NCBI GenBank assembly: GCA_022925895.1
Contig: JAKSYS010000071.1
Coordinates: forward strand, 62,001 to 126,000
DNA length: 64,000 bases
From: Fragilaria crotonensis
Taxonomy: Eukaryota; Bacillariophyta; Fragilariophyceae; Fragilariales; Fragilariaceae
Direction of reading: 5' to 3'
Positions 17,032 to 23,152 of this stretch are shown in pieces. The number at the start of each line of letters is the position of its first letter. Within the stretch, counting starts at the first letter, position 1. A model generated the notes under the pieces. That model was not told where the DNA came from. It saw nothing but the letters and a program-made list of their open reading frames with translations, and made no database searches. Made by a program: the position numbers and the translations under genes.

Positions 17032-17819
17032 ATGAAAGGTGGTCTGTTTGTGGGACAAAGATCATATCCTTTTTAGAAAACTGGAGGGGCTCGGTGGCGT
17101 CGGGAAACATATGAGAATTTTTATCATAAATTCATAGCTATACTTCTAAATACATACATGTATATGCAAAGCATACTCATATTCACCAATTGCGGCAGGG
17201 TATGCATTATGCATACACGAGTGCTGCACTCAGTACCTGGTATCATATGTACCTGGTAGAGAATCAAACAAGAACTTGAATAAATGGACCACGACGTAGC
17301 CGTCGTACTCGAGTACAGTACTCCAGTACTGCGCAACTCCGTTAGCGCTGATGTCGGATGTCATGTGAGCAATACTACAGGTATTTCTAGTATGAAGGAG
17401 TACTGCAGTACTCCGAGTACTGGATTACTGCACAGGTATTGGTACGCCATGGAACAGTATTCCGAGTTTCGAGGTCTACAGTGTATGCAGTATCAATAGC
17501 GACCAAGGGCCGTCATGACTTTGCCCTATGACTCGACCATTTGAGAAATGCCTTTTATGCACATTTCTACCTCTGTATAGATGTAGTTGTCATGTTCACT
17601 GAGGAAATACTGGTTTACTATCTAATGCATAACCGTGGCAAACATCTTTTGCTTAAGTAAAATATTGCAGGAATATAACTGCTTTTTTAGTCAACGATAT
17701 CCTTTGCTGCATGAGCACCTATTATATTTGTTGTACGCACTACGAACACCAGCACCATCATTGAGTGCACTAGCTACTCTCTCCCCTTCATCAAGGAGTC
17801 CGAAGCTAGCGCCACCACC
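17032..17819. other. Intergenic, palindrome-rich
   Basis: 788 bp between the KH gene start and the next plus-strand gene. The part at 17160-17470 is dense in GTAC and AGTACT palindromes (GAGTACAGTACTCCAGTACT, GAGTACTGCAGTACTCC) and CCTGGTA elements. No gene is supported. Confidence 0.5.
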
Positions 17820-19355
17820 ATGGTTGTTTCTCCGTTTTGGAACAGGGTTGAGCCAAACTGGGATGGCGGGGCTGGGGATGACGAGCCTGCTTGTCCTCGT
17901 TCTTTTTATTCAAAACGACTAAAGGCAGACCTCCTTCCTGGCACGTTTGTCCTATTTTCCTCTAAGGATGGGGCGACTACTGATGGACCATCACCATGTA
18001 GTCATTATGACGGTTGTGGGGTTGGGCGAATTGTTTGCGTGGTCACCCATGAGGACAGAGCAAGACGCCAGGACATATCAGATTCAAGGCAACAACCTCC
18101 TCCCCAGCATACAAGAGTTCGAGTGAATATCTTTAAGCGATTCACGGAGTTTGCAGCAACGACCGCAAGCATTCTGCGCCCAGAGTTTATCAACGACAAT
18201 CATCTTCGACATCTGCCTGAAGTTGTGCAGACAGAAGAGATGCAACTGATCGCAAGCAGTGACATCATGAACCTTGCCTTCGTCTTTACTCCAACTGCGC
18301 TCAAAGATTCATGTAACTTGTTCTTCACGTGCCAGGGAATGGCAATCGCATTTATTGTACGATCACGATACCAAGAACAAGTTGGATTAGAGTTGCCGAT
18401 GCTAACTGAAGTACCTCCAGACCATTGCCTACCATTCCCTTCAAGCTATATTGGATCGGGGTATTATGACTGCTACCCAAGGAGGATGTGGAATAGTGTC
18501 ATGTGCCTTAAACTGGAGTTGACTAAATTGCTTGGCCGATACTCCCATTTACAAGGCCTGTACTGTAAGGAGGCATGTCGATTGTCAAATTTCACGCCCG
18601 AAACGTGGGGTTTCCTGCGATGGCAGTTCCATGACATTTTTGAAGATGCCGATTGTGGAATGTCGACGAGAATCCGTCGTCATCGACTTACAGAGGCAGG
18701 TTTAGTCGTGAAGGCCGTGCGAGTAATCAAGCGTTGCACAGTGCTTAGATTCGAAACTAAGGCTCATCTGCGGCGTTTGTGTGGTGTTCTTGGGGAATCA
18801 GCCACTGCAGGACAGAGGTGTCGGCTGCCAAAGATATCGACCCCGAAAAACCTTTGGCAAAACGATATAATTAATGTCGTTTGTGGGGCAGACACTGCCG
18901 AAGCAGGTGCATTCAGCCTCAGGACCGTGCATGATGGAATAGATTTGGAGTATGATGGATGTAGTGAGCTTTTTCTTACTGTGCGGTATCGGCGGTTCAC
19001 TTATTCTGCGAACAGCATCAGCATGCCTGCCGACTGTGATCCCCTCTTGTTTGCTTTGATTTGTCGACATGATCCATACGTTGATACAGCCAACAGTATT
19101 CAGAATGATACTTTGCTGGTGGCAGACGAGGACGATGACGATGAAGCAATGGTGATAGCAGATGGCAGCGAGTTCGAGGATTGCGATGGCTGTTTGTACC
19201 GTGTTGTACACGGAATGGCAACTTCAGTTGGTTCCTCAACCTTTATTCAGTCTAGATGCGTGTATCCTCAAAGCAACAACCCATTATTTGGAACGGAGAA
19301 GTCCTTCGACGTACAAATTGCAAAAGATCTAATTGAACGACGGCTTAACGGCTAG
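17820..19355 (+). CDS. Unrecognised 511-aa protein, convergent with the 1059-aa gene
   Basis: A single long open frame starting in an excellent context (CACCACCATGG). I do not recognise the family. An N-terminal segment, LPGTFVLFSSKDG followed by GVGRIVCVVTHED and RVNIFKRF, has the rhythm of a BAH- or Tudor-like beta domain, but this is weak. The middle is Cys- and Tyr-rich (SYIGSGYYDCYPRRMW, HLQGLYCKEACRLSNF). The tail is acidic (VADEDDDDEAMVIADGSEFEDCDG). There is no signal peptide or membrane segment. Its stop lies 96 bp from the stop of the large minus-strand gene, and the two form an isolated convergent pair flanked by palindrome-rich DNA. It could be the second gene of a mobile element or an unrelated host gene. 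Confidence 0.7.
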   Translation: MVVSPFWNRVEPNWDGGAGDDEPACPRSFYSKRLKADLLPGTFVLFSSKDGATTDGPSPCSHYDGCGVGRIVCVVTHEDRARRQDISDSRQQPPPQHTRVRVNIFKRFTEFAATTASILRPEFINDNHLRHLPEVVQTEEMQLIASSDIMNLAFVFTPTALKDSCNLFFTCQGMAIAFIVRSRYQEQVGLELPMLTEVPPDHCLPFPSSYIGSGYYDCYPRRMWNSVMCLKLELTKLLGRYSHLQGLYCKEACRLSNFTPETWGFLRWQFHDIFEDADCGMSTRIRRHRLTEAGLVVKAVRVIKRCTVLRFETKAHLRRLCGVLGESATAGQRCRLPKISTPKNLWQNDIINVVCGADTAEAGAFSLRTVHDGIDLEYDGCSELFLTVRYRRFTYSANSISMPADCDPLLFALICRHDPYVDTANSIQNDTLLVADEDDDDEAMVIADGSEFEDCDGCLYRVVHGMATSVGSSTFIQSRCVYPQSNNPLFGTEKSFDVQIAKDLIERRLNG

Positions 19356-19451
19356 CTAGTAGTACGAAGCGATTACTTTTACTAGATAGTTGTCGATGGA
19401 ACGACAAGTCTTCCTCGTGCCTGATAGTACGAAGTTGGTACCTCGCTTGCT

Positions 19452-22400
19452 CTACTCATACACATCATCTTGTGACAACGCTTGTGTTCGAAAAGCATGA
19501 GGCATCGGATGATCTTCTTTGTGCTTTCGAATCGCAGGTTCCTCTATGCGACATAGGAATACCATGCGTCGTTGTAGCCATCGGGCAATAGGGACGAGTC
19601 GCGATTTTTTGCTTATTCCCCTCACCCCACCGCCATGGCTTGTTCTCCGAAAGAAGTAGGTTTTGATGAGGGAATTCATCGCTTCCCAGCCTTGTTGGGA
19701 GAACCGATAAAGGTTCTTCCACTTGAAAAGATACTCCGCCACATGACCTGAGCCAATCATATGAAGATAATTCGTAACGCCCTCTTTTTGCCAAAGGTGA
19801 ATCCACGCCTGGAAGAATTTGTCGGCATGACATTGATAGGTTGCGACCATGACATTTGTGAAATCATCCTTCTTCCGCAGGAGAACCATCGATATTCTAT
19901 AGTTGTCAAGCGCTAGCATCCAAAGCCTTCTGCGATTGTCATCAGTCACACATGCCTCGACAAGAATGTCAAGAGCATCAATAATGCGTCGAGTCCTTAC
20001 ATTATCCATCGTAATTGGTCTCATCTCTTTTTTCTGGAAGTCAAACGGACACATCCATTGACAAGGATCATTCGGAGTTCCGAGGATGGATTGATTTATA
20101 ATGCTTTCCACGTGTGCGATGAATTGTGTCACTCTAGAACCCTCGGCATTCACATTCGTATATATCAGTTGCTTCTTAGCATTTGATAAACCTTCAACCA
20201 GGAGCATCGAGAGAATCTTGATTCCATTTCTATTCTCCATGTGTAAAACACATGGAAGCGTCGACATCAATAGAAAGTACGCGCCTTCTTTGACCTCTCC
20301 ATGCGCGATTTCTTTTGACAGTCGTTCAATGGTTGCTTCGCCCTTCAATGCATGTCGTAATCGTTCTCGCCTTATTTCAAGGGCGCCATCAACACTGAGC
20401 CCTCTAAGAATGAGTTCATTCGTAAACAAACGAGAGAGTGACTGCTTCTGTGACACAGTCACAGGAGAATAATGAATCGACATCACATCATTCAATGAAT
20501 CCATCGCAGGCTCCAATTCCACATCACTGCGTGTCATTCTTGACTCCGCAAGTATTTCAACCAGCGCTCTCTCTAGTGTAGAAACCAGCTCTTCTACTTC
20601 TCCTTTAATCGTATCGATTCTCTCCGGTGTCGCCATCTCTTTATGAAAGCACATCCATTCTGGATCCAAAGCCGAGTGGTCCCTGCACCATCTATCGCAC
20701 GGCGTTGCGTTTGGAGTGGCTAACGCATCTGACACAGTGGCACATCCTGTGCATGGAAGCGTGTGCACTTTCGCCGCACCCCCCTTGCATAGACCCTTCC
20801 ATTGTGCCGACAAGTCGCAATTCGTCATCACCGAAAATGGAAGGAATCCTGCCATTGTCACTGGAATAGTTTCAGCAGTCGACAAATCATCCAAAAACCG
20901 AAAGAGCGATGCAAATTCTGTAAAGGTCTGCTTCGTCTCTCTACCCATCATAATCTTGAGAGGAATACACAGATTTCTAGATTGCGCACTCATGGTGAAA
21001 GGATTGTCTAGCAGGGGCCTGCTTGTTATCGGACATCGGGCTGCCCGATCGGTTATCTTGATCCCACCAGCAATTATTGACAGATTCTTCGATAGCGATG
21101 CACCATCTATCGAAGAAGCAACCGACAAGCCTCTTTGTTTGCCGATCTCGTCAAGATGAAAGGCTTTCGTAACACACAGCATTGCTTTTGTGTAGTCGAA
21201 TTGTACTGACTCGCCAACCATTGTCTGTTGCAGACGGAATGGACAGTGCTCCATAGCAAACCACTCGACAACACCAGCTGTTCGCTTGAGCTCGGATTTT
21301 GAAGGTATCATCGATCCACGAAAGCGCTTGATGCCACAGGTCTCAACGCGCCTCAGAACATCCATTCCTTCATAGGAAAGAGTTCCACCGGCAAGGTCCA
21401 TCTCACGGAGTATATTGAATGGAGTAAAGACGTTTTCCCGGAAATACTTTCGAGCGCACGTAACCAAATGCGGCACAAATTTCTCCTGACTCCACATTGC
21501 CTTGGCCACAAGGTGACCAACGCGAGCATCACTCCAACGTCGGTATCGAGTGCGTATGACATCATTCATAACCGCCAAAAGATCATTTGCAAAAACCTTG
21601 TTTCGGCTTCGTTGTGCGCTCCGGCTACTATTCCCCTCTGCCGTGGTTGGTGTTGCCTCATGTTGTCCCCTGACGGCCATCATGTCTGCTTGGCGTCGCA
21701 GCAGAGCTCTATTCTCAGCAAGTATACGATGGTTTTTCTGATGCATCAAAGCAATTTTACCTTTGAGTGTCTCCACTAGAACCTGCAGCGTCAACACAGT
21801 CGCGCAAGAATTAAGACTTTGTTCTTGGTCATCATCCTGCCCAGCGGCATGGCCTCTGGCATTTATTGTGCTGCTCTCGTCTGCACCACCAATAGTACCC
21901 ACAGTGCCATGTGTCACACGATGCCCCCCGCTCTCAGCGATACGAGCAGCTGCAGTCTCACTTACAATACCAGTAGTACTAGTACCTGATGATGACGATG
22001 AGTTTGATCTATCGTCTCCTGCTGACTCGTTGTCCTCTTCACTACTTCCTCTGCTGATTGTGTCATCCTCCTCATCGTCCAGCATCTGCCGTGCCATATT
22101 AGCATCTTCTAGTACAACAACAGCAGTAGTAGGCACAACATGCTGCTGAGTCACTGTTCTCTTTCGTTGTTCAAAACAGTCTTCATTCTTTAGCGTTGTG
22201 GGATGCGAGAAGTACTTGTGGCTCGCCTTGCACCCAAATCTACGAGAGTTGATTAAATTTCTCTTGCTCGTATCAGGAGGCAGCGAGTCCCATAAATCGC
22301 AGGGGGCACAAAACATGAAGCCTTGTCCGTTGAATGCATAATGTCGTGTTCTACCAAAGTCGGAACACCTTGGTTTCCTTGAAGTGACCGAAGCTCGTAG

Positions 22401-22631
22401 TACTCGTGTGCTTGGTGTTGCACTTGGTGGATCAAGTACCGCTACGGAAGCATCATCTTCGCTTTCTTGCATCATCTGAGAAATCGACCTTGTTGTTGTC
22501 CGAATTGGGGCTGTTCTTGCTGCGTTTGTTTTCCTCTTCTTCCGCTGCTGCCGACTTGATTCGTTTCTTGCGGCACGGCCATACGAAGCGGCAGCATGCT
22601 GAACATGGTTACCAGATCTTGTTAGAACCAT
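19452..22631 (-). CDS. Unrecognised 1059-aa protein, possibly a DDE-type transposase
   Basis: Intact single-exon gene with ATG at 22631. Residues 1-60 are basic. A Cys-containing module sits at about 89-145 (CSDFGRTRHYAF, FMFCAPCDLWD, FGCKASHKYFSH) and may bind zinc. An acidic, serine-rich linker and a predicted coiled coil (about 280-317) follow. The C-terminal ~700 residues form one domain with three acidic motifs in order: ASSIDGASL (Asp509), MTNCDLSAQW (Asp606) and QQGWEAMNSL (Glu983). Between the first two motifs and the third lies a Cys/His-rich insert (C615, H623, C627, C630, C645, C649, H652, C661, H663). HMIGSGHVAEYLFKWKN before the last motif and FFRRTSHGGG after it look like a conserved core. 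This order suits an RNase H-fold DDE transposase with a zinc insert, but I know no named family with this layout. A domesticated host protein is possible. Confidence 0.6.
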   Translation of the reverse strand: MVLTRSGNHVQHAAASYGRAARNESSRQQRKKRKTNAARTAPIRTTTRSISQMMQESEDDASVAVLDPPSATPSTRVLRASVTSRKPRCSDFGRTRHYAFNGQGFMFCAPCDLWDSLPPDTSKRNLINSRRFGCKASHKYFSHPTTLKNEDCFEQRKRTVTQQHVVPTTAVVVLEDANMARQMLDDEEDDTISRGSSEEDNESAGDDRSNSSSSSGTSTTGIVSETAAARIAESGGHRVTHGTVGTIGGADESSTINARGHAAGQDDDQEQSLNSCATVLTLQVLVETLKGKIALMHQKNHRILAENRALLRRQADMMAVRGQHEATPTTAEGNSSRSAQRSRNKVFANDLLAVMNDVIRTRYRRWSDARVGHLVAKAMWSQEKFVPHLVTCARKYFRENVFTPFNILREMDLAGGTLSYEGMDVLRRVETCGIKRFRGSMIPSKSELKRTAGVVEWFAMEHCPFRLQQTMVGESVQFDYTKAMLCVTKAFHLDEIGKQRGLSVASSIDGASLSKNLSIIAGGIKITDRAARCPITSRPLLDNPFTMSAQSRNLCIPLKIMMGRETKQTFTEFASLFRFLDDLSTAETIPVTMAGFLPFSVMTNCDLSAQWKGLCKGGAAKVHTLPCTGCATVSDALATPNATPCDRWCRDHSALDPEWMCFHKEMATPERIDTIKGEVEELVSTLERALVEILAESRMTRSDVELEPAMDSLNDVMSIHYSPVTVSQKQSLSRLFTNELILRGLSVDGALEIRRERLRHALKGEATIERLSKEIAHGEVKEGAYFLLMSTLPCVLHMENRNGIKILSMLLVEGLSNAKKQLIYTNVNAEGSRVTQFIAHVESIINQSILGTPNDPCQWMCPFDFQKKEMRPITMDNVRTRRIIDALDILVEACVTDDNRRRLWMLALDNYRISMVLLRKKDDFTNVMVATYQCHADKFFQAWIHLWQKEGVTNYLHMIGSGHVAEYLFKWKNLYRFSQQGWEAMNSLIKTYFFRRTSHGGGVRGISKKSRLVPIARWLQRRMVFLCRIEEPAIRKHKEDHPMPHAFRTQALSQDDVYE

Positions 22632-22923
22632 TCTTGTTCTATGCTCCTAACCGCTTTACAACTAAGCAACCACAACGCGGCTGAGAGGAGCTTCGCCTTT
22701 AGGTGCTGTTCTTCTTCTCCAGCCACAACTTCCAAAAAAGGTACGAACTGGTTGGAGTAACACCTCTTGATCTGCTGCTATCATGATGATATCTACACTA
22801 TCAAACCAACGACACGACATAAATATTAAGAAATGACCTTTGCGTAGAATTTACGACAATATCAGGTTTTGAGCCGGACATTTTCAGGAAAACTAATGAC
22901 GCAGGTGAATTGGAGTCGAAAAC

Positions 22924-23038
22924 CTACTTTTGCACCCAGCCGAGTTGTGTGGTAACCACTTCAAGTGCTGGCTCCTTATAACTCAAGGATGCACCATTTT
23001 AACGCGTTACCACTCAACTCGTCTGGGTGCAAAAGTAG
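22924..23038. repeat. 115-bp hairpin with 33-bp arms
   Basis: Arms 22924-22956 and 23006-23038 are inverted copies matching at 31 of 33 positions (outer part CTACTTTTGCACCCAG), with a 49-nt loop. It is too long and too far from any 3' end for a terminator. It may be a small MITE or the end structure of the neighbouring two-gene unit; no clear target duplication is visible beside it. Confidence 0.7.
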
Positions 23039-23152
23039 AAGCACTTTAAGTTACTTAGGTTTTTCAATTTCTTCTTTTTACTTAGAGGTGTTCGCGACCG
23101 TTACACGGCGCGCACTTTCGTAAATGCCGCCTCTGGTCGCTATTGTGCATAG

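Follow-up and report, generated by a model that had tools for sequence, protein, structure and literature searches.

A two-gene DNA transposon with a mostly single-base target duplication in the diatom Fragilaria crotonensis

The window analyzed here is a stretch of 64,000 nucleotides of Fragilaria crotonensis DNA (C690:62001-126000) from a genome of 62.1 Mb in 881 contigs. As the original prediction, made from the letters alone, had stated, it holds two convergent genes seen as open frames, one of 511 amino acids (aa) at 17820-19355 on the plus strand and one of 1059 aa at 19452-22631 on the minus strand, with 96 base pairs (bp) between their ends. We found that this pair lies in an element with terminal inverted repeats, that the element has moved recently within this genome, and that its insertion usually duplicates a single target base. 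Probably, it is a two-gene DNA transposon of the cut-and-paste type, in which the 1059-aa protein would be an Asp-Asp-Glu (DDE) transposase of the type found in the CMCT clade and the 511-aa partner its likely required subunit or cofactor.

Ends, copies and clades of the element

The original prediction reported no terminal inverted repeats and proposed to locate the element ends by aligning genomic copies. This alignment placed the ends at 17494 and 23145, and repeats are present at both; they had been missed because the stretch considered at the time stops within the element. The features that define the element in the window are the following.

17494..23145, no strand: whole element, 5652 bp; both termini carry the repeat found at the ends of copies elsewhere that are 99.4-100% identical
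17494..17505, plus strand: left terminal inverted repeat, 12 bp perfect, CAATAGCGACCA, with an imperfect continuation (16/20 of the first 20 bp)
23134..23145, minus strand: right terminal inverted repeat, partner of the 12-bp perfect repeat
17493..17493, no strand: left copy (T) of the 1-bp target duplication, by the rule from 44 insertions and from empty sites at other loci
23146..23146, no strand: right copy (T) of the 1-bp target duplication, from flank comparison and the 44-insertion rule

A solitary copy, the outcome that the original prediction had set against a transposon, is not what we found. The DNA of the gene pair gave 46 matches in its own genome; at the protein level, the transposase had at least 56 matches in 30 clusters, with 43 of its 105 candidates scored, and the partner had 72. 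None of the other copies is near-identical to the window copy, whose longest DNA matches are ~72% identical. Elsewhere, one subfamily comprises six copies (L009-L014) that are 99.4-100% identical in their aligned pieces and occupy six unrelated sites, some of them deleted in part, and L016 and L017 (on C282 and C243) form a pair at 99.2% identity. The identity between copies starts at CAATAGCGACCAAGGG on one side and at CAATAGCGACCAGAGG on the other.

The relatives fall into two clades, A and B, whose transposases are ~30% identical. Clade A elements run CAATAG..CTATTG and many clade B elements CACTAG..CTAGTG, the clade B termini being CACTAGAGACC or CACTACAGACC. Most copies of both clades start with CA and finish with TG, and the terminal C..G is intact in 40/44 insertions. 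Clade B ends are paired at distances of 5.5-5.9 kb at at least nine loci, two of which (C26 and C233) have identical flanks. With up to three mismatches, the two end patterns occur 110 and 399 times in the genome versus 19 and 162 times for the reversed patterns; as a rough estimate, these counts correspond to more than 100 elements.

Both clades also include elements with the same ends yet too short for both genes. These short elements are a chosen sample among the places listed: 14 regions, plus clade B pairs of which 10 were longer and 10 were of short or middle size. Non-autonomous elements of ~105-500 bp and 1.2-1.9 kb (L039-L052 and the short clade B pairs) carry the terminal repeats of both clades. 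Five contig pairs (L021/L023, L025/L026, L046/L049, L051/L052 and C26/C233) are ~99% identical or share the same flanks, and are probably haplotypes or recent duplications of a single locus.

Single-base target duplication and empty sites

We compared the two bases that directly flank the element, one on each side, in 44 insertions. The two agreed in 34 (25% expected by chance; p = 5e-13), with 21/25 in clade A and 13/19 in clade B, and in 34/40 of the insertions with terminal C and G both intact. Eight control offsets gave agreement in 6-15 of the 44. All four bases are represented among the duplicated ones and near-identical copies carry different duplicated bases; therefore, the base is not element sequence. 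Rows whose flanks were those of another row or of its haplotype (L049, L052, L026, L021 and the C233 copy) were excluded from this count, as were those with a single end recognized or available (L016, L018, L020, L022 and L027). Rows L029-L038 are ends already counted, save L029, which supplied the right end of L011.

The joined flanks of 14 copies were then searched against the genome for empty sites. With one base of the right flank removed, three clade A insertions matched their empty sites at 40/40 (L009, on C52), 40/40 (L015, on C55) and 38/40 (L019, on C5) positions, and the same sites reached only 23-28/40 with 0, 2 or 3 bases removed. The empty sites of L010 and L012 were also fitted best with one base removed, the latter next to a 3-base indel. 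Altogether, seven insertions could be set against empty sites: five carry a single duplicated base, one carries none, and the site of L011 has diverged too far for a verdict. The control offsets, together with the empty sites, led us to reject duplications of more than 1 bp. The flanks were also looked at by eye as a possible palindromic target, and this idea was dropped.

Two sets of observations speak against a duplication at every insertion. The flanking bases differ in 10/44 insertions, one of which is the C461 insertion (L091/L092), while four others have an altered terminal base. For clade B, the comparison with an empty site is confined to this C461 insertion, whose unfilled homologue, found in the L009 flank, is fitted with zero bases removed (1 mismatch in 24). 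Either the duplication was never made there or one base was lost later. For clade B, the 1-bp duplication is drawn from the 13/19 matching flanks (p = 8e-5) and not from an empty site. The C461 element itself (C461:41228-42562) belongs to clade B, is 1.3 kb long and lies in DNA that is homologous to the L009 flank.

In most cases, then, insertion duplicates a single target base. To our knowledge, 1 bp would be less than the stagger of any other DDE transposon whose duplication has been measured, some known elements making none. We found no DNA transposon with a 1-bp duplication among the papers listed in the literature searched, which did not extend to Repbase and subscription journals, where an earlier description is possible; the closest wording came from a LINE-1 preprint, on the deletion of 1 bp at a target site. 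The two-gene eukaryotic DNA transposon that the original prediction had offered as one of its options is borne out by the inverted repeats, the number of copies, the empty sites and the target duplication.

The gene pair and the subterminal palindrome

A partner gene adjoins the transposase in 29 of the 30 clusters and is convergent with it in all 29, a count that includes near-identical copies and haplotype pairs and does not represent 30 independent events. For 27/30 clusters, the distance from transposase to partner is at most 6 kb (27/27 convergent), the weakest of these pairings being C728, with a single 41-residue piece, and C560, at 2.6 kb distance; C233 and C421 were added when a clade B partner was used as the query. 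The remaining cluster, C475, ends at a contig end. In this genome, the partner travels with the transposase, a condition that the original prediction had set for a two-gene element.

The converse is less strict, since 14/41 partner clusters have no scored transposase. At two of them, C375 and C853, the partner match lies between ends 5.9 kb apart, so the transposase region was probably missed there. C76:102397-105297 and C38:80020-82916 are ~2.9-kb elements with the same ends and the partner gene only, with a 498-aa open frame at C76. For both genes, nonsynonymous change is below synonymous change, with ratios of the two rates (dN/dS) of 0.07-0.18 in the 7/36 pairs that are unsaturated; both genes are therefore retained. 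The gene pair is maintained jointly under purifying selection in both clades.

That the partner accompanies nearly all transposases speaks for a function in transposition. Eight partners could be aligned, at 26-65% identity to the 511-aa partner of the window. Neither Pfam nor a PDB profile search gave a convincing family or structure match for the partner, and a BAH-like N-terminus, suspected by eye, found no support in the model searches.

In the transposase, the three ordered acids named by the original prediction are present and invariant in 6/6 aligned transposases of the two clades. The Cys/His-rich insert that it described is real as well: C627, C630, C649, C661 and H663 are invariant in the same six proteins, as are H957 and H963 with their x5 spacing. 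The C(2)C pair stands 21 residues past the second D, and the second His of H(5)H 20 residues ahead of E. The GWEAMNSL and FFRRTSHGGG blocks recur in clade B as GWEALNAL or GWEAVNAL and as FFRRTNRGG or FFRRTNQGG. The suggested DDE enzyme with a zinc insert fits these invariant residues; its RNase H fold is putative. The positions in the window are as follows.

17820..19355, plus strand: partner gene, 511 aa, of no known family
19452..22631, minus strand: transposase gene, 1059 aa, from the open frame and family alignment
21105..21107, minus strand: Asp509 codon, acid 1 of the triad, invariant, putatively catalytic
20814..20816, minus strand: Asp606 codon, acid 2 of the triad, invariant, putatively catalytic
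20742..20753, minus strand: Cys627-x2-Cys630, presumed zinc C(2)C pair, invariant
19743..19763, minus strand: His957-x5-His963, presumed zinc H pair, invariant, in register with RAG1 H937/H942 in hhalign
19683..19685, minus strand: Glu983 codon, acid 3 of the triad, invariant, aligned with RAG1 E962 in hhalign
22924..23038, no strand: subterminal palindrome, 54-bp arms with 44 paired, 107-222 bp from the right end

The surroundings of the pair had been called palindrome-rich, and inverted repeats were indeed listed about it, at that point without a shuffle control; the strongest one, the subterminal palindrome, was later shuffle-controlled. A palindrome of this kind, mostly ~110 bp long, lies ~95-230 bp from the end in 12/14 clade A right ends (the window, L009, L010, L015-L017, L019, L020 and L022-L025) and is lacking in the right ends of L018 and L027. 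Its paired positions number 44/54 in the window, 57/58 in L019 and 55/56 in L022; L020 pairs at 29/31 with unrelated arm letters, and the L016 palindrome is shorter. Shuffles of eight right ends reached at most 9, versus 20.5-55.5 for the real sequences. Nine left ends lack the palindrome, as do the initial 300 bp of the single clade B right end examined.

Nine copies were aligned, with five of the 14 right ends excluded (L010 and L016 as near copies, and L018, L020 and L027). In this alignment, 24/46 pairs have changed on both sides and 88.9% of the cells pair, a value scored on the same alignment from which the structure was derived and unmatched by 500/500 shuffles and by versions shifted by 1-3 columns. 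The changes comprise 54 two-sided cells, compensatory across the arms, and 5 one-sided ones. This rarity of one-sided changes points to maintenance at the level of DNA, not RNA, and an RNA hairpin was judged unlikely on these numbers. The palindrome would fit a dimeric binding site, or a hairpin homogenized by replication or repair.

Classification and proposed mechanism

A 2025 paper defines the CMCT clade as EnSpm/CACTA, Mirage, Chapaev, Transib, Plavaka, ESTA and Lanisha, with RAG1 belonging with Transib (PMC12730594). The clade is characterized by an Asp-Asp-Glu triad, C(2)C and H(3-4)H between the second D and the E, and 5'-CA..TG-3' termini; target duplications of 2-5 bp are given as a reported range rather than a strict criterion (PMC12730594). 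The element described here has the acids in the same order, the C(2)C past the second D, the His pair ahead of the E and CA..TG termini, and it has an accessory gene, as some CMCT members do. The spacings are close to those of RAG1, the recombinase of our own antibody genes (D-D 97 versus 108, D-C 21 versus 19, H-E 20 versus 20), and TNYxH, HV and ExxN around the E are common to both. An unguided hhalign comparison of the family with the RAG1 core aligned 45 columns near the E and paired H957 with H937, H963 with H942, E983 with E962 and N986 with N965, in the numbering of the RAG1 chains.

Several results weigh against this assignment. The duplication is 1 bp here versus 2-5 bp in the clade, and the His spacing is 5 versus the published 3-4. 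The hhalign score against RAG1 is weak (E 0.017, probability 2.75%, equaled by 3/600 shuffles and by 0/25 real control pieces), and the alignment with an insect Transib fragment spans only 16 columns (E 0.78). The profile search suggested at the outset, run with both proteins against Pfam, NCBIfam, PHROGs and PDB by sequence and by profile, gave no convincing match and no family that could be named; the best weak matches were a Pfam coiled-coil model (E 0.006) and a zinc-finger model (0.015 in two members). Pfam transposase models matched neither these transposases nor their partners, solved transposase structures had no sequence-level match to the 1059-aa protein, HMMER gave no match to RAG1 or Transib chains, and no confirmed relative was found in viral, prokaryotic, plasmid and phage collections. 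CMCT membership consequently leans on the motif layout, the termini and the weak alignment. A further difference is that the second gene accompanies nearly every copy here, and the role of the partner in transposition is suggested by its co-occurrence with the transposase and by nothing else. The evidence would place the element in or beside the CMCT clade; it points in one direction and is not proof.

The same gaps in similarity would also be expected of a superfamily outside the CMCT clade, that is, a DDE enzyme in which CA..TG ends and a C(2)C/H(n)H layout arose independently. The lack of a convincing profile match to known transposases, a duplication beyond the published range, a His spacing of 5 and the weak hhalign score all agree with such an origin. 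The RAG1-like order and spacing, the TNYxH, HV and ExxN motifs shared around the E, and the CA start and TG finish in most copies of both clades argue against it, and we consider it unlikely. An ordinary EnSpm/CACTA element that has merely diverged is more improbable still. Two-gene CACTA elements exist, and many clade B ends read CACTA..TAGTG; however, clade A ends are CAATA, EnSpm/CACTA duplications are 2-4 bp and not 1 bp, and PF02992 had no match in six proteins, nor in the genome, where the controls of the scan were also silent.

In RAG-like (ProtoRAG) transposons, RAG1L and RAG2L likewise form two convergent genes between short inverted repeats (PMC7204232, PMC4411706). The 511-aa partner could then be a RAG2 of lost similarity, in keeping with the RAG1-like motif layout and with clade B ends that begin CACTA, the RAG-like terminal consensus starting CACTW (PMC7204232). 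In contrast to the 1 bp seen here, RAG-like duplications are nearly always 5 bp (PMC7204232), and the similarity of the transposase to RAG1 is weak. The partner, moreover, has no RAG2 or kelch sequence similarity: kelch models did not match any of the 8 partners scanned, Gly-Gly pairs are few (0-2 per protein), and no RAG2 chain appeared in the PDB profile search. We regard a RAG-like relative as very improbable. A two-gene Harbinger of Ectocarpus also has a tail-to-tail pair in a stramenopile transposon; its duplications are 3 bp (ANT or TNA) (PMC12477816).

Equally improbable is a domesticated host gene pair of transposon origin, an option that the original prediction had entertained as a recent event: the window copy has intact genes and lacks a near-identical sibling, but its close relatives are mobile, and domestication is disfavored because both of its ends and its matching flanking base are intact. 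We rejected KDZ/Zisupton in view of the 8-bp duplications that Zisupton makes (PMC12730594).

We thus return to a CMCT-type two-gene transposon, which we see as a new lineage of a known kind of transposon with a fair chance of deserving superfamily rank. A bolder proposal, a separate superfamily of two-protein eukaryotic transposons in or beside the RAG1/CACTA clade, distinguished by a one-base stagger, a new-fold partner and a clade A palindrome that tells the ends apart, is a tentative possibility, somewhat short of an even one. In the mechanism that we propose, the RNase H core of the transposase would be stabilized by a C(2)C/H(5)H zinc site. The transposase, perhaps with its partner, would bind the 12-bp ends and, in clade A, the right subterminal palindrome as well. 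It would excise the element, instead of copying it, and join its 3' ends to target strands one base apart, after which host repair would fill the one-base gaps and leave a single duplicated base. The transposition complex would most likely require the 511-aa partner, as a second subunit or as a cofactor.

Apart from the transposon, the same genome contains 19 silicon-transporter matches, 18 of them above the family cut-off (best E 4e-193), which supports its diatom origin. One open frame of 1456 codons at C97:29749-33762 contains three silicon-transporter domains and is apparently a fused triple transporter.

The length of a target duplication mirrors the geometry with which the transposase grips its target. 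A 1-bp stagger combined with RAG1-like motifs would, if true, add a new point to the structural logic of the CMCT clade. With recent copies and intact genes at hand, the system is testable in a diatom. The joint conservation of a transposase and a second gene outside animals also bears on the origin of two-protein transposases such as RAG1/RAG2.
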